From the IMG/VR virus record IMGVR_UViG_3300020195_000074, positions 1 through 39,420 of that record: a stretch of DNA of 39,420 bases; one strand, written 5' to 3'. Origin of the DNA: a virus. Both the position numbers and the translations under genes were made by a program. Shown here piece by piece: positions 1 to 39,420 of the stretch (positions within the stretch are counted from its first letter, which is position 1; every line of letters begins with the position of its first letter). Below the pieces are notes generated by a model. It worked only from the letters and a program-made list of their open reading frames with translations. It was not told the DNA's origin and searched no databases.

Positions 1-113
1 AGGTAAGCAGACAGGTGGATGACCAGGTGGATTCCCAGGTGCGAGAACAGGTAAGCAGAAAGGTAAACGCCCAGGTGTACGACCAGGTGGATGACCAGGT
101 AAACAACCTGGTA
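1..113. repeat. Terminal direct repeat, left copy
   Basis: Identical to 39308-39420. A third copy, matching 1-127, lies at 38804-38930. This suggests a circular or circularly permuted molecule. Because the repeated unit also occurs internally in the same gene, the closure point and repeat number could be affected by assembly collapse. Confidence 0.95.
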
Positions 114-905
114 AGCGACCAGGTTCGCGCCCAGGTTCGAAACCAGGTAACCGCCCAGGTGGACGAAGAAAAACTAGTACCCCATAGATTCTCGTGGGAA
201 TCGTTAGGATGGTCTACTGGGTTGGCATCGTTTATTGATTACTACCAGAAGATAGGAGTTATCAAGCACAAGGCAGCTGACAAGTGGCTTAAGTATCTAA
301 AGAGTGGTGCATACGCCACTATCTTTGTGGATGGATTAGCTGTCGTCTGCCGCAGGCCAACCAAAGTTAACAGAGATGAACAGAACCGGCTCCACTCTAC
401 GGATGAAGCGGCCATATCGTGGCGCGATGGATATAAAATCCACGCTATTCATGGAGTACGATTCGAGAACAACCTAGAGACTTGGGAGAAAATACGCGAC
501 GGTAAACTAACTGCCAAAGAAGCTATCGGCATAAAAGACATTGACCAACGGATGTGCGCGATTAAACACCTTGGGCCGAAAGATATGATTACCGCCCTGA
601 AAGCCAAGCTGGTAGATTCAGGGGAAATGCGGCTCTACAAACATCTTCCGGAACGTCACATCAAACGTGTGGCGGTTGGTCATGGACACGACGTCGCAGT
701 ACAGAACCGTTTGTATGAGGTTACGGATTTCTTCCGTGAGGGGACTAAATACTTCCTCCATTACAAAGACCCTTCAACCAAGAACGATTACCTGTCTTTC
801 TGCACTCAGGGAGTCGAGAAAAGAGGGAAGGACGCGGACGCAGTACAAGGCTGGAAACACGGAATGTCAAAGCAATCTTACCTGGGTATGATCCTAGAGG
901 CATGA
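3..905 (+). CDS. DUF6745-like protein, C-terminal part (continues from 38425-39420)
   Basis: The frame is open from base 3 and ends with TGA at 903-905. Bases 3-161 encode the last tetrapeptides of an xxQV repeat. Bases 162-905 encode a globular domain of about 247 residues that I recognise as DUF6745-like: FIDYYQKIGV, a W-rich stretch, an LHSTDEAAISWRDGY segment, a run of short helices with IDQRMCAIKHLG, and a MRLYKHLPE strand. An internal ATG at 15 lies within the repeats and is not a convincing start. The first 113 bases equal the last 113 of the window and the frames agree, so the real start is most likely ATG 38425. The joined protein would be about 595 residues. The function of DUF6745 is unknown. 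Family assignment is from memory of the pattern, not a search. Confidence 0.75.
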   Translation, partial: VSRQVDDQVDSQVREQVSRKVNAQVYDQVDDQVNNLVSDQVRAQVRNQVTAQVDEEKLVPHRFSWESLGWSTGLASFIDYYQKIGVIKHKAADKWLKYLKSGAYATIFVDGLAVVCRRPTKVNRDEQNRLHSTDEAAISWRDGYKIHAIHGVRFENNLETWEKIRDGKLTAKEAIGIKDIDQRMCAIKHLGPKDMITALKAKLVDSGEMRLYKHLPERHIKRVAVGHGHDVAVQNRLYEVTDFFREGTKYFLHYKDPSTKNDYLSFCTQGVEKRGKDADAVQGWKHGMSKQSYLGMILEA

Positions 906-960: not shown

Positions 961-2124
961 ATGAGGTACGTCGAACTCTTTGCTGGTGTGGGTGGTTTCC
1001 GATTGGGGATTCAAAAAGCCAACAAAAAAGCAAAGTGCGTTTACGCAAACGAGTTCGATAAGTACGCCGCCCAAACCTACGATAAAAACTTTGGAGGACA
1101 CATTGACCAACGAGACATCACAACCGTCCCTGCTACCGACATCCCCGCCCACGACCTCATCTGCGCCGGATTTCCTTGCCAAGCTTTCAGCGTTGCTGGG
1201 AAGCGACGAGGCTTCGAAGAGACTAGAGGCACACTCTTCTTTGATATTTGCCGGATCGCACGGCATCACCGAACCCCGTATCTATTCCTTGAGAACGTCA
1301 AAGGACTCCTCAACCACGACGGCGGAGCCACCTTTCACACCATCCTCAAATCGCTGGACGAGCTTGGGTATGACTGCCAATGGGAGGTGCTTAACAGCAA
1401 GGACTTCGGCGTTCCCCAGAACAGGGAAAGAGTGTTCATTATCGGACATTTTAGAGGCCGACCCCGACCCGAAGTATTTCCTCTCGGAAGTACAGACGAA
1501 GCGATTGATGGACATAAAAGCGTTCCAAAAGTAATAGCAAGAGGTGGACTTCAAAACCATGCTGGGGAAATGATTGAACAAAGTCCAGCATTAACAGAAG
1601 CTATGGGTAAAGGTGGCGGTCAGATAGCCCGGCTCAACAACCCAACCCATTCAAGTGACAGAGTGTACGGAGCAGACGGAGTAAGCCCAACAATCAACAC
1701 AATGCAGGGAGGGGGTAGACAGCCTTTCGTCAATACCCCAGAAGCCACCAAGAAAGGCTATGCCGAAGCGACAGTAGGTGACTCGATCAACCTATCAGCA
1801 CCCAACAGTAAAACACGCAGAGGGCGAGTCGGAAAAGGCATCGCTCAAACCGTAGATACCGAAGCGCGACAGGCTGTAGTTTCCCGAACTGTACGTTCGG
1901 GAGGGAATAAATCGCCACACGGCAGTAGGCACAACTGGGATAGCTACCAGGTAGGTCAAAGCATCAGACGGCTGACTCCAATCGAGTGCGAAAGACTACA
2001 GGGCTTTCCGGATAACTGGGCTTCCGGCGTGTCGGATACCCAGCGGTATAAGCAAATGGGTAACGCACTCACAGTCCCAGTTGTAGAAGCAATCACGTTA
2101 CAATGGTTACGCAATACAAAATGA
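961..2124 (+). CDS. DNA (cytosine-5-)-methyltransferase
   Basis: A complete 387-residue C5-cytosine methyltransferase, which transfers a methyl group from SAM to cytosine in a target DNA site. Visible motifs in order: I FAGVGGF (7-13), IV GFPCQAFS with catalytic Cys73, VI ENV (111-113), VIII QNRERVFIIG (153-162), a variable target-recognition region (about 170-325), IX RRLTPIECERLQGFP, and X MGNALTVPVVEA near the C-terminus. No restriction endonuclease gene is adjacent, so it is probably an orphan enzyme protecting phage DNA from host restriction. There is no clear SD close to ATG 961. Its TGA overlaps the ATG of the first glycosyltransferase (ATGA at 2121-2124), which ties it translationally to the glycan operon. 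The recognition site cannot be read from the sequence. Confidence 0.95.
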   Translation: MRYVELFAGVGGFRLGIQKANKKAKCVYANEFDKYAAQTYDKNFGGHIDQRDITTVPATDIPAHDLICAGFPCQAFSVAGKRRGFEETRGTLFFDICRIARHHRTPYLFLENVKGLLNHDGGATFHTILKSLDELGYDCQWEVLNSKDFGVPQNRERVFIIGHFRGRPRPEVFPLGSTDEAIDGHKSVPKVIARGGLQNHAGEMIEQSPALTEAMGKGGGQIARLNNPTHSSDRVYGADGVSPTINTMQGGGRQPFVNTPEATKKGYAEATVGDSINLSAPNSKTRRGRVGKGIAQTVDTEARQAVVSRTVRSGGNKSPHGSRHNWDSYQVGQSIRRLTPIECERLQGFPDNWASGVSDTQRYKQMGNALTVPVVEAITLQWLRNTK

Positions 2125-3062
2125 GGATTAGCTACGTCGGGAACCGGACTAACCTTGCCAGTGATGGCAAGAGTTTCAACACGGAAAATCACGTCGCCCT
2201 CTCTCTGGAGAAGCTAGGCCATACTGTAAACTTCATTCAAGAGAATGAGATTAAGCCAGGCACATTACCAGGGTTGGTTGATAGTTCTGACTTATTTTTA
2301 TGGACTCGCACCTGGCCGGGGTTCGTTACTGAAGAAGATTTGATCGCAATCAAAGTTCCCACGGTCAGCTATCACCTGGATAAGTACGCGGGAATCAAAC
2401 GTGATGGGGGTATCGGCCAAGATGTCTTTTGGAAGACTGACCACGTATTCTCACCAGAGGGGAGCGAACAAAGTGCCGAGGTATTTAAGAAACACGGTAT
2501 CAACCACCACTACTTACCGGCAGGCGCGTACGAGGGTGAGTGTTACATTGCCGACCCCGTACAAAAGTTCCAGCATGAAATTGTATTCGTAGGCGGCGGG
2601 ATAGAGTATATGCATCCTGAGTGGCGGTATCGCGGTGATCTTGTGAGGTGGCTACAAAGTACCTACGGTGGTCGGTTCGCCAAGTATGGTCACCCTCAAC
2701 CGTTCATCCGTGGTAATGAGTTAAACCAGCTATACTCAAGCAGTAAGATTGTAATCGGTGACTCACTTTGTAATGACTTTATGGACTCGTATTATTTCTC
2801 AGATAGGCTGTTCGAGGTTCCGTCTCGCGGAGGGTTCCAGATTGCCCCCTACATCCCAGGGGTCACCGATTACTATAAAGACCGCAAGGAAATAGTCTTG
2901 TACTCATTCGGTAACTGGGCGCAACTGAAGAACTTGATAGATTACTACCTTTCGCACGATGAGGAACGTGAGGCAATCCGTAAGGCTGGTCACGAACGGA
3001 CGAAGCGAGACCACACGTACACCGAGCGCACAAAAACTATGTTGGATGTTGTATGCGCTTGA
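2121..3062 (+). CDS. Glycosyltransferase, CgeB/GT1_2-like (GT-B fold)
   Basis: About 313 residues, probably transferring a sugar from a nucleotide donor. I chose ATG 2121 (MRISYVGNR) because it overlaps the upstream stop as ATGA; an ATG at 2103 is also in frame. The N-terminus has the alternating hydrophobic strands of a GT-B Rossmann domain (ISYVGNRT, SDLFLWTR). The C-terminal part has the pattern of CgeB-like and Glycos_transf_1_2 proteins: SDRLFEVPSRGGFQIAPYIPG, then KEIVLYSFGNWAQLKNLIDYYL and REAIRKAGHERTKRDHTYTER. It heads a run of overlapping glycan genes. Acceptor and donor are unknown. Ends 10 bases inside the next gene. Confidence 0.8.
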   Translation: MRISYVGNRTNLASDGKSFNTENHVALSLEKLGHTVNFIQENEIKPGTLPGLVDSSDLFLWTRTWPGFVTEEDLIAIKVPTVSYHLDKYAGIKRDGGIGQDVFWKTDHVFSPEGSEQSAEVFKKHGINHHYLPAGAYEGECYIADPVQKFQHEIVFVGGGIEYMHPEWRYRGDLVRWLQSTYGGRFAKYGHPQPFIRGNELNQLYSSSKIVIGDSLCNDFMDSYYFSDRLFEVPSRGGFQIAPYIPGVTDYYKDRKEIVLYSFGNWAQLKNLIDYYLSHDEEREAIRKAGHERTKRDHTYTERTKTMLDVVCA

Positions 3063-3511
3063 GCCTTGGCGGTGGCCGCGAGAAAATAAAAGGCTTTACA
3101 AACGTCGATATACTCGACCTACCCGAAACTGACGTAGTGCATAACCTTATTTTTATCCCGTACCCGTTTGATGACGGTTCGGCTGACGAGATACTTTGCA
3201 AAGACATCGTGGAACACCTGCCTAATTACACTCCCGACTCGAAGCCAATGATCCCGGCGTTCATGGAAGAAATGTACCGCATACTCAAGCATGGCGGAAA
3301 GCTGACGATACAAACACCAGGGGTAAATGCTGGCTTCGCTTGGACAGATCCGACTCACGTTCGCCCGTTCGAGATACGCTCGTTTGATATGTTCTGTCCT
3401 AACACCGACTTTGGGAAGTCTACGGGTTTCTATTCAAAGGCTCGATTCGAGATGGACAGCAAGTGGGAACATGAAAACGGCAACCTGACGTTTGTGATGG
3501 TACGGATATGA
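3053..3511 (+). CDS. SAM-dependent methyltransferase (class I, short)
   Basis: 152 residues with the features of small class I methyltransferases of glycan clusters: LSLGGGREKIKGFTNVDI (glycine-rich SAM loop followed by the acidic residue after strand 2), PFDDGSADEILCKDIVEHLP (motif around strand 4), then EEMYRILKHGGKLTIQTPG (strand 5). The usual helix before the glycine loop is very short, so this is a minimal version of the fold. It overlaps both neighbours by a few bases and must be co-translated. Probably methylates a sugar or a lipid-linked intermediate made by the surrounding transferases; that role is inferred from context only. Confidence 0.8.
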   Translation: MRLSLGGGREKIKGFTNVDILDLPETDVVHNLIFIPYPFDDGSADEILCKDIVEHLPNYTPDSKPMIPAFMEEMYRILKHGGKLTIQTPGVNAGFAWTDPTHVRPFEIRSFDMFCPNTDFGKSTGFYSKARFEMDSKWEHENGNLTFVMVRI

Positions 3512-4218
3512 ACTGGGTTGGGGTTATTCCATTCGTCTATCAGCCATACCTGGACGAGTGTGTTAAAACCATGCACCCAGATTTCAAGAAGCACGTCCTA
3601 TTTGTAGACAATACAAAAGACAACTTAGGGATTATGAAGTCACATAATCTTGGCGTAGAGAAAATGCGTGAAGAAAACGCCGACTGGTTAATCGTCATGA
3701 GCGCGGCAATTAGGTGGGGCAAACCTGGCGGGCTGGACTTTATCGACCAGTTAGTGAGACGCCCTGGCCACCACGTCATCCACGGCATAGGTGGCACTGA
3801 CGACAAGGATCAACAGATTCCATATGGCTGGCACCTAGCGGCGTTCAACAGAAAGACCCTGGAGGCTATTGGATTATGGGACGAGAACTTTAGCCCGTAT
3901 TCGTTAGACGATATTGATATGAGCCTGCGTATTCAAAAGCACTTCAAGGATAAGATTAAATGGGAGAAGGTTTCGTGCGATGTTTCAGACACGACCCACG
4001 CCCACAGTATTAACCTTGGTGGGGTTAAGGCAACCTACGCACCACGTAATGGATATTTTACTCGCAAGTGGGGGAGAGATGGTGGAGAATGGGATAAACG
4101 CCCCTATGATAGGCCGTTCAATGACCCAGAGAAACAACTATCGTGGTGGCCGGCACCTGATCACGCGCTGTCTATACAAAATAACGAATTGAGGGATGGT
4201 GAAAAACCGACTAGTTAA
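3508..4218 (+). CDS. Glycosyltransferase family 2-like (GT-A)
   Basis: 236 residues. It begins WVGVIPFVYQPYLDECVKTM, with an early LFVDNTKDNLGIMKSHNLGVEKM segment, the place where GT2 enzymes bind the nucleotide-sugar. A later AFNRKTLEAIGLWDENFSPYSLDDIDMSLRI segment matches the GT2 acceptor/catalytic region (G-x-W/F-D-E-x-F plus a D-D-x-D run). The canonical DxD is not obvious: ADWLIVMSAAIRW lies where it would be expected. ATG 3508 overlaps the preceding stop by 4 bases. The C-terminal 50 residues are Trp- and Pro-rich with no recognisable domain. Confidence 0.78.
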   Translation: MNWVGVIPFVYQPYLDECVKTMHPDFKKHVLFVDNTKDNLGIMKSHNLGVEKMREENADWLIVMSAAIRWGKPGGLDFIDQLVRRPGHHVIHGIGGTDDKDQQIPYGWHLAAFNRKTLEAIGLWDENFSPYSLDDIDMSLRIQKHFKDKIKWEKVSCDVSDTTHAHSINLGGVKATYAPRNGYFTRKWGRDGGEWDKRPYDRPFNDPEKQLSWWPAPDHALSIQNNELRDGEKPTS

Positions 4219-4897
4219 TGATAAATATGACATCATCGTCCCCGATGTTATAGCTGACTGGGACGCGCCGAGCCATTGGGAGAGAGAACGGTTTGACTCA
4301 ATGGAAAAACACCTCAAGGACACCGACGTTCTGTTCTGCGTTGGGGCCGAATGGGGCTGGATGGAGGCGGTGTTTGCGAAATACTTTACTCCAAAAGTGG
4401 TACTATTCGAGCCAACCCCTGACTTCTGGCCTGGTATTAGGTTGACGTGGGAGGCTAATAAACTGCCATTACCCCTCGCCCACTTCGTCGGTCTGGTGGG
4501 TAGGGAGTCCGACGATGAGGTAGGAGTTGAGATTGGTAACTGGGCACCAGCATCTTACGAGAAAAAACTACTAGAAAGGTCGATGCCCTATAAGTACCTC
4601 CATGAACACAAGGACGTACCCAAGATAAGCATTGATGATTTCAACGAACTGACAGATTCGTCAAAAGCACCCGACGCACTATCTATCGACGTTGAGGGGG
4701 CAGAGTATGAAGTCTTGTTGGGCGCGGAAAACACCCTCAAGAGACATCATCCGTTAGTGTGGGTTTCGATACACCCCGATTTATTACTTGAAAACTACGG
4801 CGCTACGCCCGATCAGATTCATGATTTAATGAAAAACCTAGGCTATACAGGAAAACGCCTAGCAACTGACCATGAGGAGCATTGGCTGTATGAGTAA
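4196..4897 (+). CDS. FkbM-family methyltransferase
   Basis: 233 residues. The C-terminal half carries the FkbM signature: KISIDDF, then ALSIDVEGAEYEVLLGAENTLKRHHPLVWVSIHPD, and LLENYG and LMKNLGY further on. The N-terminal half has a Rossmann SAM site: DVLFCVGAEWGWMEAVFAKYF and VVLFEPTPDFW. FkbM proteins are O-methyltransferases acting on sugars of polysaccharides and natural products, so this likely caps or decorates the glycan built by neighbouring enzymes. Overlaps the upstream gene by 23 bases and the downstream start by 8, consistent with one polycistronic message. Confidence 0.88.
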   Translation: MVKNRLVNDKYDIIVPDVIADWDAPSHWERERFDSMEKHLKDTDVLFCVGAEWGWMEAVFAKYFTPKVVLFEPTPDFWPGIRLTWEANKLPLPLAHFVGLVGRESDDEVGVEIGNWAPASYEKKLLERSMPYKYLHEHKDVPKISIDDFNELTDSSKAPDALSIDVEGAEYEVLLGAENTLKRHHPLVWVSIHPDLLLENYGATPDQIHDLMKNLGYTGKRLATDHEEHWLYE

Positions 4898-5783
4898 GCG
4901 CGTACTGATAACGGGGGCTAGTGGGTTTGTAGGTTCCCACGTACTCAACTATCTATTAGAAAAAACTGACTGGACGTTTGTATGTCCTTGTTCATTCCGG
5001 CATAAGGGGAATCCCCTAAGAATAGAAAAAAATGACAGGGTGGAGGTACCCACCCTTGACCTGACGGGAGTGATACCCAGTCTAGGCGACTTTCATTATA
5101 TCCTAAATCTAGCCTCTGAGAGTCACGTCACGCGCAGCATCCAAGACCCGGTGCCGTTTGTCGAGAATAACATTTCTCTTGCGCTACAAGTTTTAGAGTA
5201 CGCCAGAAAGCACCCCCCGGAGTTAGCGTTGCATTTTTCTACGGATGAGGTGTTCGGGGATAGTGGGGGGTCAGAACTAAATCCCTCCAATCCCTATGCC
5301 GCCTCAAAAGCCTCCCAAGAGTTAATTGCAATGGCCTATGAGCGGACGTATAGCATCCCTGTCGTCATCACAAACTCGAACAACATCATCGGATCGGGGC
5401 AGGATAAAGAGAAGTTCGTGCCGAAGATAGCCAGTGAAATTAGAAAAGACTACACCGTTTACCTTCACACGTCTGGGGGGCAGTTCGGTTCGAGATACTA
5501 CAACCATGCGACTAACGTGGCTGCTGCTCTTTTGTTCATAATCGAAAACGGGATACGGGATGGAAGGTATAACATCCCCGGAGGGGAGAAGCTGAACAAC
5601 CTGGAAATGGCACGGGCGGTGGCGGAGCTTTTAGGGGAGGAGCTGCACTACAAACAAGTGGACGCGGAGGTAGACCGCCCAGGGTATGACAAGACCTACC
5701 CAGAGCCGGATAGCAAACTAACTAACTTGGGGTTTAAACCACCAATCAGTTTCAAGGATGGATTACGAGAGGCGGTACTTTGA
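4890..5783 (+). CDS. NAD-dependent sugar epimerase/dehydratase (extended SDR, RmlB/GalE-like)
   Basis: About 297 residues. ATG 4890 is preferred over 4872 because GAGGAGC lies about ten bases upstream. The NAD site GASGFVGSHV is at the N-terminus. The active-site signature is LHFSTDEVFGD followed by NPYAASKAS (Tyr-x3-Lys), as in dTDP-glucose 4,6-dehydratases and related UDP-sugar epimerases. Later segments (VITNSNNIIG, FGSRYYNHATNVAAALLFII, YNIPGGEKLNNLEMA, DRPGYDKTY) fit the family. It likely converts a nucleotide sugar into a deoxy or epimerised donor for the local glycosyltransferases. It is the only obvious donor-making enzyme in the cassette, so other precursors must come from the host. 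Confidence 0.88.
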   Translation: MSKRVLITGASGFVGSHVLNYLLEKTDWTFVCPCSFRHKGNPLRIEKNDRVEVPTLDLTGVIPSLGDFHYILNLASESHVTRSIQDPVPFVENNISLALQVLEYARKHPPELALHFSTDEVFGDSGGSELNPSNPYAASKASQELIAMAYERTYSIPVVITNSNNIIGSGQDKEKFVPKIASEIRKDYTVYLHTSGGQFGSRYYNHATNVAAALLFIIENGIRDGRYNIPGGEKLNNLEMARAVAELLGEELHYKQVDAEVDRPGYDKTYPEPDSKLTNLGFKPPISFKDGLREAVL

Positions 5784-35006: not shown

Positions 35007-35069
35007 GCCCCTAGATAGGACGGAAGTATGAGTAGAACAATTAATAAATTAACGCCAAAGGAGAAAACA

Positions 35070-35573
35070 ATGTCTGAAAAAGCTAACAAAGTCCAGATCA
35101 AGACACTCGGTGGAAGGCTGCTATTCGAACACTCGTCAGTAGGCAACACCCTTAAAGATACAGTAGAGCTGGCAGTGGCTAAGGGCATTGACCTAGATGG
35201 CGCTGATTTGAGAAATGCTCGACTGGCCTTCGCTTGGCTGCCTGAAGCTAATTTGACTGGCGCTTGGCTGGTCGATGCTCGGATGACTGGCGCTCAGCTG
35301 GAAGGTGCTAATTTGTACGGTGCCCGGCTGGAAGGTGCTAATTTGTACAAAGCTGATTTGACCGGTACTCGGCTAGTCCATGCTGATTTGGGAGGCGCTC
35401 GGCTGACTGACGCTGACCTGACTCGTTCTGATTTGGAAGGCGCTCGGATGGATGGTGTTGATTTGAGAAATGCTCGACTAGCCCATGCTAATTTGGAAGG
35501 CGCTCAGATGATTGGCGCTGATTTGAGAAATGCTCGGCTGACTGACGCTGATTTGACTGGTACTAGGCTGTAA
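35070..35573 (+). CDS. Pentapeptide-repeat protein
   Basis: 167 residues from ATG 35070 with AAAGGAG six bases upstream; an in-frame ATG at 35028 has a poorer context. After a short N-terminal domain (about 1-45) come about 24 pentapeptides of the A(D/N)LxxA type, e.g. ADLRNARLAFAWLPEANLTGA, forming a right-handed beta helix. The DNA shows 15- and 30-base repeats (GCTGATTTG, GGAGGTGCT-like units). Known members mimic DNA and protect gyrase or bind other DNA enzymes; here a role against host defences is possible but unproven. Confidence 0.85.
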   Translation: MSEKANKVQIKTLGGRLLFEHSSVGNTLKDTVELAVAKGIDLDGADLRNARLAFAWLPEANLTGAWLVDARMTGAQLEGANLYGARLEGANLYKADLTGTRLVHADLGGARLTDADLTRSDLEGARMDGVDLRNARLAHANLEGAQMIGADLRNARLTDADLTGTRL

Positions 35574-38071: not shown

Positions 38072-38110
38072 GGAGTAAGTATAATGAAAACAACTAATAA
38101 GGAGGTCAAT

Positions 38111-38425
38111 ATGACCAAACCAGTTCGTCATGGCGACGTCACGCTTCATACCGCTAAGCTCCCAGCTGGGGCCAAGGTGGTTGCCCAATCCACTAAATTC
38201 GTAGCCGCGGAAGGTGAAGTCACTGGACATCATCACACCGTTGAAAGCGACGGTGAGTTTCAGGTACTCGAAGCGGGGGACAAGCGGTATTTCGTGTTCG
38301 CCAAACCCGCGACGATTTCTCATCCGGAACACCGGACGCTGACGATTCCACCGGGAACCTACCGGCAGGGGCAAGAGATAGAAGAAAACCCGTTCAATAA
38401 CGAAATCCGCGAGGTCTTGGATTGA
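38111..38425 (+). CDS. Cupin-like phage protein
   Basis: 104 residues from ATG 38111 after AAGGAGG; ATG 38084 with its own AAGGAG is in frame, giving 113 residues. VRHGDVTLHTAKLPAGAK, EGEVTGHHHTVE, RYFVFAKPATISHPEHRTLTIPPGTYRQGQEIE. The HHH and later HPEH fit a small double-stranded beta helix that could bind a metal. Related proteins in phages have no known function. Its TGA overlaps the DUF6745-like start (TGATG). Confidence 0.6.
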   Translation: MTKPVRHGDVTLHTAKLPAGAKVVAQSTKFVAAEGEVTGHHHTVESDGEFQVLEAGDKRYFVFAKPATISHPEHRTLTIPPGTYRQGQEIEENPFNNEIREVLD

Positions 38426-39420
38426 TGGATAAGATTACCAAATTGACCGTCGCACAAACAAAAATCATGGAAGAAGTTAGCGGGCACTGGATTAAATACA
38501 TCTTGGGAGGAGATGATTCTATCAATCGAAAGGTTGCTAAAGAGGGGATTGAATGGATATATAGTCTGGCTAAGCTAAAAAAGCCAGTTGTGCTATTCGT
38601 AGACAGCCCACTAGCCGCTCAGTGCGCTATTCCTATTTACAATAATCTTGTTAAGTCAGGCAAGCGCCAAGGGGTAAGCGCCCAGGTTCGCGCCCAGGTT
38701 CACGACCAGGTGTACGACCAGGTAAACGCCCAGGTTCACGACCAGGTGGATGACCAGGTAGGCGCCCAGGTGTACGACCAGGTGGATGACCAGGTGCGCG
38801 GCCAGGTAAGCAGACAGGTGGATGACCAGGTGGATTCCCAGGTGCGAGAACAGGTAAGCAGAAAGGTAAACGCCCAGGTGTACGACCAGGTGGATGACCA
38901 GGTAAACAACCTGGTAAGCGACCAGGTTCGAGCCCAGGTGGTAGCCCAGGTGGATGAACAGGTAAACGCCAAGGTAACCGACCAGGTTCGAGCCCAGGTA
39001 GGCGACCAGGTAAACGACCAGGTAACCGACCAGGTGGATGGCCAGGTAGGCTCCCAGGTGGTAGCCCAGGTGGATGAACAGGTAAACGCCAAGGTAAACG
39101 ACCAGGTGTACGCCCAGGTAAACGACCAGGTTCGAGCCAAGGTAGGCGACCAGGTAAGCGACCAGGTGGATGACCAGGTGGAAGACCAGGTAAACCACCA
39201 GGTAAGCGACCAGGTTTACGACCAGGTAAACGACCAGGTTCACGGCCAGGTAAGCAGACAGGTTCGCGTCCAGGTTCGAAACCAGGTAAACGCCAAGGTT
39301 CACGGACAGGTAAGCAGACAGGTGGATGACCAGGTGGATTCCCAGGTGCGAGAACAGGTAAGCAGAAAGGTAAACGCCCAGGTGTACGACCAGGTGGATG
39401 ACCAGGTAAACAACCTGGTA
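38425..39420 (+). CDS. DUF6745-like protein, N-terminal part with xxQV repeat array (continues at 114)
   Basis: ATG 38425 overlaps the upstream TGA. The frame is open to the end of the window (332 codons) and joins in phase with base 114, giving about 595 residues in all. Residues 1-84 form a folded head with VVLFVDSPLAAQCAIP, a pattern typical of DUF6745 N-termini. Residues 85-332 are 62 tetrapeptides of the form x-x-Gln-Val, and four more follow after the join. The third position is nearly always Gln and the fourth Val; position two alternates mainly Asp and Ala. The first position varies (Arg, His, Tyr, Asn, Asp, Gly, Ser, Thr, Val). The array may form a long helix or fibre holding the C-terminal domain at a distance. 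Function unknown. Confidence 0.8.
   Translation, partial: MDKITKLTVAQTKIMEEVSGHWIKYILGGDDSINRKVAKEGIEWIYSLAKLKKPVVLFVDSPLAAQCAIPIYNNLVKSGKRQGVSAQVRAQVHDQVYDQVNAQVHDQVDDQVGAQVYDQVDDQVRGQVSRQVDDQVDSQVREQVSRKVNAQVYDQVDDQVNNLVSDQVRAQVVAQVDEQVNAKVTDQVRAQVGDQVNDQVTDQVDGQVGSQVVAQVDEQVNAKVNDQVYAQVNDQVRAKVGDQVSDQVDDQVEDQVNHQVSDQVYDQVNDQVHGQVSRQVRVQVRNQVNAKVHGQVSRQVDDQVDSQVREQVSRKVNAQVYDQVDDQVNNLV
38804..38930. repeat. Internal copy of the terminal repeat
   Basis: Matches 1-127 exactly and its first 113 bases match 39308-39420. Created by duplication inside the tetrapeptide array, and it makes the contig join ambiguous. Confidence 0.9.
39308..39420. repeat. Terminal direct repeat, right copy
   Basis: Identical to 1-113. 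Frame and gene content agree across the join. Confidence 0.95.

Follow-up and report, generated by a model that had tools for sequence, protein, structure and literature searches.

Organization of the array gene

The DNA analysed here (hereafter the window) is a stretch of 39,420 bases corresponding to positions 1 to 39,420 of the IMG/VR virus record IMGVR_UViG_3300020195_000074. One of its open reading frames (ORF), at 38425-39420, encodes an 84-residue head followed by four-residue xxQV units that run up to the very last base. A second, in-frame ORF starting at base 3 carries on the array and stops at 905 with a DUF6745 domain. Sequence comparison of the contig ends indicated that positions 1-113 are exactly those of 39308-39420, and joining the ends over this 113-base overlap yields a single frame of 595 aa composed of the head, the array and DUF6745. 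The array gene thus spans the contig ends, running in frame from 38425-39420 into 114-905, with the array occupying residues 85-348, that is exactly 66 four-residue units. The range 38425-39420 given for the gene in the initial annotation therefore covers the head and 62 units, while the last four units and DUF6745 lie at 114-905. The features concerned are the following:

38084..38425, plus strand: small partner protein of 113 aa, with an internal start at 38111 (from the sequence and relatives)
38425..38676, plus strand: N-terminal head domain, residues 1-84, conserved across phages (relatives' profile, 7e-19)
38677..39420, plus strand: xxQV tetrapeptide array, first 62 units, to the contig end (from the sequence)
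114..161, plus strand: last 4 units of the array once the 113-base overlap is removed, in frame with the ORF at 38425
162..905, plus strand: C-terminal DUF6745 region, stop codon included (PF20530; Pfam match 336-614)
1..113, no strand: terminal overlap, identical to 39308-39420; assembly break within the array and no second gene copy
38803..38930, plus strand: 128-base block repeated 504 bases downstream (39307-39420 plus 114-127), where the contig broke
38933..38977, plus strand: 45-base block with a second copy at 39053-39097 (10 units apart)

The xxQV array is real and far above chance: three CAGGT cores at 12-base spacing were matched 43 times versus 0.00 expected from shuffles, and in-phase runs reach 15 in the window but never exceed 2 in any of 200 Markov windows. 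The C-terminal domain had been called DUF6745-like, and correctly so, since it matches PF20530 with 33.7 bits (E=2.9e-8) against a curated cut-off of 27; the match reached 34.1 bits when the genome was searched, and E=1e-37 with the family profile. Weak Pfam matches of the array itself (EnY2, YpjP, cornifin) were set aside as compositional. PF20530 is described in Pfam as a domain of unknown function, and its model includes neither array, head nor partner. No published function was found for DUF6745, the literature searched containing no paper that names the domain, and a literature search with array peptide strings returned nothing.

Unit number and assembly

Bases 1-127 also correspond to 38804-38930, so that both contig ends sit inside a repeated block, which would be a typical stopping place for a short-read assembly. 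Because the two copies of this 127/128-base repeat are 504 bases (42 units) apart and hold both contig ends, short reads cannot fix how many times the 42-unit loop occurs. The path from head to DUF6745 through the repeat but without the loop has 24 units and each passage through the loop adds 42; the true number is then about 24 + 42k, with 66 corresponding to a loop traversed once. The initial count of 66 is hence exact for the joined frame but assembly-dependent, and in that form it is the largest among 39 measured arrays (range 12-66). As for the nested duplications of 127 and 37 bases initially reported, the former was recovered as the 127/128-base block whereas the latter was not found as such; a 45-base duplication is also present.

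Unit composition and codon usage

In the window array, position 4 is Val in all 66 units and position 3 is Gln in 58 (Lys in 6 and Leu in 2), so that the Gln-Val core, first described as fixed, is invariant for Val but not strict for Gln. Positions 1 and 2 are variable, as had been noted, with 10 and 9 residue types, respectively. None of the 65 pairs of neighbouring units share positions 1-2, versus 2.7 expected (P=0.056), so that growth by one-unit slippage is not visible in this array; no similarity between neighbouring units was detected at lags of 1-12 units. Single-unit slippage as the main growth mode was rejected, identical neighbours not being in excess, and so was a structural coil repeating every 3 or 4 units, for which there was no significant lag signal.

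Across the 39 arrays, the first base of the unit has a mean entropy of 1.40 bits, compared with 0.15-0.22 for the third bases of the four codons (Wilcoxon P=1e-7). Base by base, the mean entropy was 1.40, 0.56 and 0.19 for the first codon (x1), 0.26, 0.90 and 0.22 for the second (x2), 0.14, 0.15 and 0.15 for the third and 0.11, 0.05 and 0.15 for the fourth. Diversity therefore resides at the first (and second) base of x1 and at the second base of x2, not at silent bases. Near-fixed silent positions together with high-entropy variable codons were found in 37 of the 39 arrays, the other two being read only in a different register. Arg at x1 is written with a single codon within the array in 32 of 35 arrays, the main one being AGG (18), CGG (8) or CGC (8), and more than one codon within an array was used in only 35 of 286 residue-column classes, the preferred codon differing between arrays. 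Despite these differing codons, a residue alphabet is common to the arrays, namely {R,G,W,S,E,...} x {D,A,S,N,G}, and the fixed residues differ between arrays carried by the same scaffold (QV, QL, NL, SV, SL, AV, AT). The window array is exceptional in that its Val codon has silently diverged (GTA 29, GTG 24, GTT 13; 1.51 bits), and the codon argument is weakest there for that reason. The simplest account of these sequence patterns would be that a small number of unit types are copied and shuffled to build the arrays, while selection at the protein level maintains type diversity.

A role at the DNA level, in which clustered CCWGG (Dcm-type) sites would lie beside a C5 methyltransferase gene, was rejected: most arrays are without CCAGG, the QL and SL arrays having none. 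In addition, CCWGG sites outside the array are close to expectation (106 versus 114).

Variation between near-identical phages

The queries used retrieved no close relative of the window phage from INPHARED or IMG/VR. The initial annotation had suggested that the array could be a source of rapid variation, which is supported in relatives. A single RAQV unit (29 versus 30 in all) separates L144 from L145, two contigs with 99.8% identity along 6,621 bases. Long stretches of 99.6-100% identity are common to five others (L182, L184, L188, L191 and L192), yet their array genes show fusion, reshuffling and exchange of cassettes: the 18-unit gene of L192 joins the front of one L191 array to the rear of its successor, and extra units are present in L184. 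All of these contigs are metagenome assemblies in which individual junctions within repeats could be mis-assembled. The suggestion of recent growth by slippage or unequal recombination is partly right: block duplications and recombination between arrays are observed, but neighbouring units show no similarity at lags of 1-12 units.

Distribution of the scaffold and location of its arrays

Relatives were gathered by scanning for the CAGGT pattern at 12-base spacing and, later, with the C-terminal domain, which revealed numerous phage loci sharing this head and the DUF6745 domain. In one scan, 232 stretches of viral contigs encoded DUF6745-domain relatives, the best 80 of which were examined. Homologues also occur in plasmids of Streptomyces, Nocardia, Nonomuraea, Mycolicibacterium, Deinococcus and Nostoc, in nine Microcystis/cyanophage records and in one Mycobacterium prophage record, prophiGD102-1, which bears the array form. 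The bacterial distribution was sampled mainly via plasmid records plus one class (1/289 genomes), and a query of genome contigs gave two loci. Bacterial versions in Streptomyces, Deinococcus and Nostoc plasmids have no such arrays. In Deinococcus psychrotolerans (L137:3359-4369), a leucine-rich-repeat-like region, a different type of repeat, precedes DUF6745.

Among 70 non-redundant complete genes, 27 have an internal array only, 21 stand-alone arrays only, 22 neither and none both, the 'neither' class being defined by a detector of QV-type units. This mutual exclusivity is significant overall (Fisher P=5.6e-6) and in the subset not chosen for arrays (P=0.0026). A composition-free detector moved four loci (L124, L206, L216 and L218) from 'neither' to internal arrays (xAAT, xGAV) and gave no convincing case of both forms, with one weak alanine-rich match in L155. 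The scaffold-internal arrays of these four (see L124:4365-5468) are made of xAAT/xTAT or xGAV units instead of xxQV.

Among the loci sampled without regard to arrays, some of the scaffolds have internal arrays of about 10-44 units. In array-less phage homologues, head and DUF6745 are bridged by a short linker, mostly of 12-36 residues, and the array is therefore a dispensable insertion. Array-less scaffolds are often accompanied by several separate array ORFs, the majority with about 12-22 units, while several such scaffolds have no array within the ca. 3 kb examined. Two phage contigs (L059:4084-5464 and L101:1-3172) each encode some seven QV arrays as separate ORFs; the L059 record yielded no DUF6745 gene. 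As arrays occur either fused to the scaffold or separate from it, the two probably act together, an argument drawn from gene fusion.

The array could also be functionless, a self-propagating 12-base repeat passively expanding at a tolerated insertion point, as its range of 0 to 66 units in homologues and the existence of the scaffold without it would allow. Such an origin appears improbable: silent positions are near-fixed while variable codons are not, the residue alphabet is the same though codons differ, and stand-alone array genes are kept with their own starts, often many per locus.

Comparison with known repeat systems

The only tetrapeptide-repeat phage protein with a known role found in the literature search is gp54 of mycobacteriophage Tweety, which acts as a tunable counter-defence protein. 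Like the array gene, gp54 (as well as Che8 gp57 and PMC gp51) has unique N- and C-terminal regions around dozens of four-residue repeats encoded by 12-base units (PMC2884959, PMC9262239, PMC8549241). Its third codon positions are invariant, with variation at the first and second (PMC2884959), and escape mutants with more or fewer repeats overcome a prophage defence (PMC9262239, PMC8549241). Repeat number varies among related phages in both cases, as seen here in the pair with 29 and 30 units. In contrast to xxQV in the window, the gp54 repeat is AA[GW][SY]; the xAAT units mentioned above resemble these AAxx units. The end domains of gp54 have no significant match to the head or DUF6745 profiles (hmmsearch, hhalign), no partner homologue lies nearby and no stand-alone arrays have been reported. 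DUF6745 arrays thus appear analogous, not homologous, to gp54; counter-defence has been demonstrated for the latter and, by analogy, may extend to the former.

The variation of repeat number in Tweety escape mutants, for which juxtaposition of the end domains has been proposed (PMC9262239), is also what would be expected if the array were a mechanical spacer or ruler that sets the distance between head and DUF6745 by its length alone. We regard this as unlikely here, given that the separately encoded arrays of many phages cannot act as a linker and that diversity is kept at positions 1-2, which a pure spacer would not lead one to expect. We know of no DUF6745 or partner gene in Bordetella phage BMP-1. 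Its bbp36 VR2, in which a 24-base element occurs in 9-20 copies, resembles the array gene in that short repeats of variable number occur in a phage gene that is dispensable and of unknown function (PMC2884959).

Pentapeptide repeat proteins (PF00805) share a short strict period with small and aliphatic residues at set places, but their period is 5 whereas that of the array is 4 residues (12 bases), and PF00805 gave no match to the array ORF. A pentapeptide repeat gene (35028-35573, plus strand; PF00805, E=6.6e-47), which itself contains a tandem duplication of 60 bases, is located in the window about 3 kb upstream of the array gene, and another was found near the DUF6745 gene of a Mycolicibacterium plasmid (L141). 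Diversity-generating retroelements likewise concentrate diversity at chosen codons of a phage protein. This candidate was rejected since RVT_1 is absent from the window and from the records of eight relatives, some of which are possibly fragments, and since the units represent copied types, each residue having one codon, instead of randomised adenines.

Structure predictions

AlphaFold modelled the array of a full-length relative with very low confidence (pLDDT ca. 34) and, for the window half of the protein, only as a low-pTM helix. Together with the short linkers of array-less homologues, these models lend no support to the length-variable stalk that had been envisaged. A fold search of the full-length relative's model against PDB gave no match, and a second fold comparison gave Z values of at most 3.8 with only partial coverage of the C-terminal domain, which may therefore still have a known fold. 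Significant fold matches in BFVD were to two named DUF6745 proteins and two uncharacterised phage fragments; the DUF6745 profile matched nothing among PDB sequences.

W, R, Y, H, G and S are frequent among the variable residues and common on binding surfaces, and the four-residue period is maintained across very different compositions. These features would suit an array that binds a nucleic acid or repetitive ligand (DNA, RNA or a cell-envelope polymer) and whose variable residues tune specificity outside any defence context, a role that the low AlphaFold confidence in the array does not favour and that we consider to have little likelihood.

A small partner gene adjacent to DUF6745

In the window, the stop codon of the partner gene overlaps the ATG of the array gene (TGATG). 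The partner carries the motif (R/Q)HGD ... GHxH ... HxEH ... G.Y ... R.V.D and belongs to a small family in which GHxH and HxEH are conserved. A homologue is found near the DUF6745 gene in 56 of 60 non-redundant loci having at least 500 bases on both sides, whose fetched flanks were searched; it usually lies immediately beside that gene, at distances from overlap to about 1.7 kb. In a smaller set of loci, each of the 31 partner-profile matches shared its locus with a DUF6745 or head gene, which it nearly always adjoined directly, in either order; in L073 the two are fused. In the cultured Microcystis phage LMM01, which was left out when building the profile and thus provides an out-of-sample confirmation, the partner (MAP_175, E=2.6e-27) adjoins the DUF6745 gene. 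The partner also occurs near the Streptomyces and Deinococcus homologues. The copies tested matched no Pfam, NCBIfam or PADLOC entry, no significant match was obtained against PDB sequences, and the window copy matches a PHROG of unknown function.

On four plasmids, two from Streptomyces and two from Deinococcus (L136, L138, L137 and L142), DUF6745 and its partner adjoin genes of the STM4011-STM4015 families, including radical SAM, hydrolase and STM4015, a conserved neighbourhood. These neighbours, as well as the small tandem array genes adjoining scaffolds, could fit an enzyme formed by DUF6745 and its partner that, in the manner of peptide modification systems, processes or modifies the array as a substrate in cis or in trans, but this is very unlikely considering that no radical-SAM family is among those listed for phage neighbourhoods, that no leader-like segment was seen and that fold and profile searches found no enzyme fold.

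Genomic neighbourhood and proposed function

The genes surrounding DUF6745 in phages are largely early or accessory and include Erf, DNA methylases, replication proteins and one Thoeris inhibitor, Tad3. In the window, the array gene is followed by a C5 DNA methyltransferase gene. The latter opens a cassette for surface or DNA modification (961-5783, plus strand), which immediately follows the array gene and continues with glycosyltransferases, SAM methyltransferases and a nucleotide-sugar epimerase. A PADLOC search for anti-phage defence gave no match for the window proteins and weak, doubtful matches in two relatives.

The reading that we tentatively favour is a two-gene module consisting of the small partner (38084-38425) and a head-DUF6745 scaffold carrying the array as an insertion of four-residue period, in which two positions are largely constant and one or two vary. 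The array would lengthen, shorten and reshuffle by recombination between near-exact 12-base units, while selection at the protein level would preserve the diversity of the variable residues; in other phages, separate small genes supply the same kind of array beside an array-less scaffold. Array and scaffold would interact physically and the variable residues would play a direct role. The array may thus serve recognition or tuning, as the rapidly adjustable component of an accessory module for host interaction whose most likely purpose would be counter-defence. This function is favoured because of the Tweety gp54 precedent and the early or accessory neighbours; against it, some bacterial pairs lie near STM4011-4015 genes, a context that does not look phage-specific.

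A more speculative proposal is that DUF6745 and its partner form the core of a widespread, as yet undescribed system with hypervariable arrays in cis or as a shuffling stand-alone set, in which specificity would be changed by recombining 12-base units with no mutagenic reverse transcriptase. The cis/trans arrangement and the conserved partner provide testable components, for which named phages are available (the LMM01 pair and the array form of prophiGD102-1). If DUF6745 arrays act like Tweety gp54, repeat-based tuning would be a general phage strategy.
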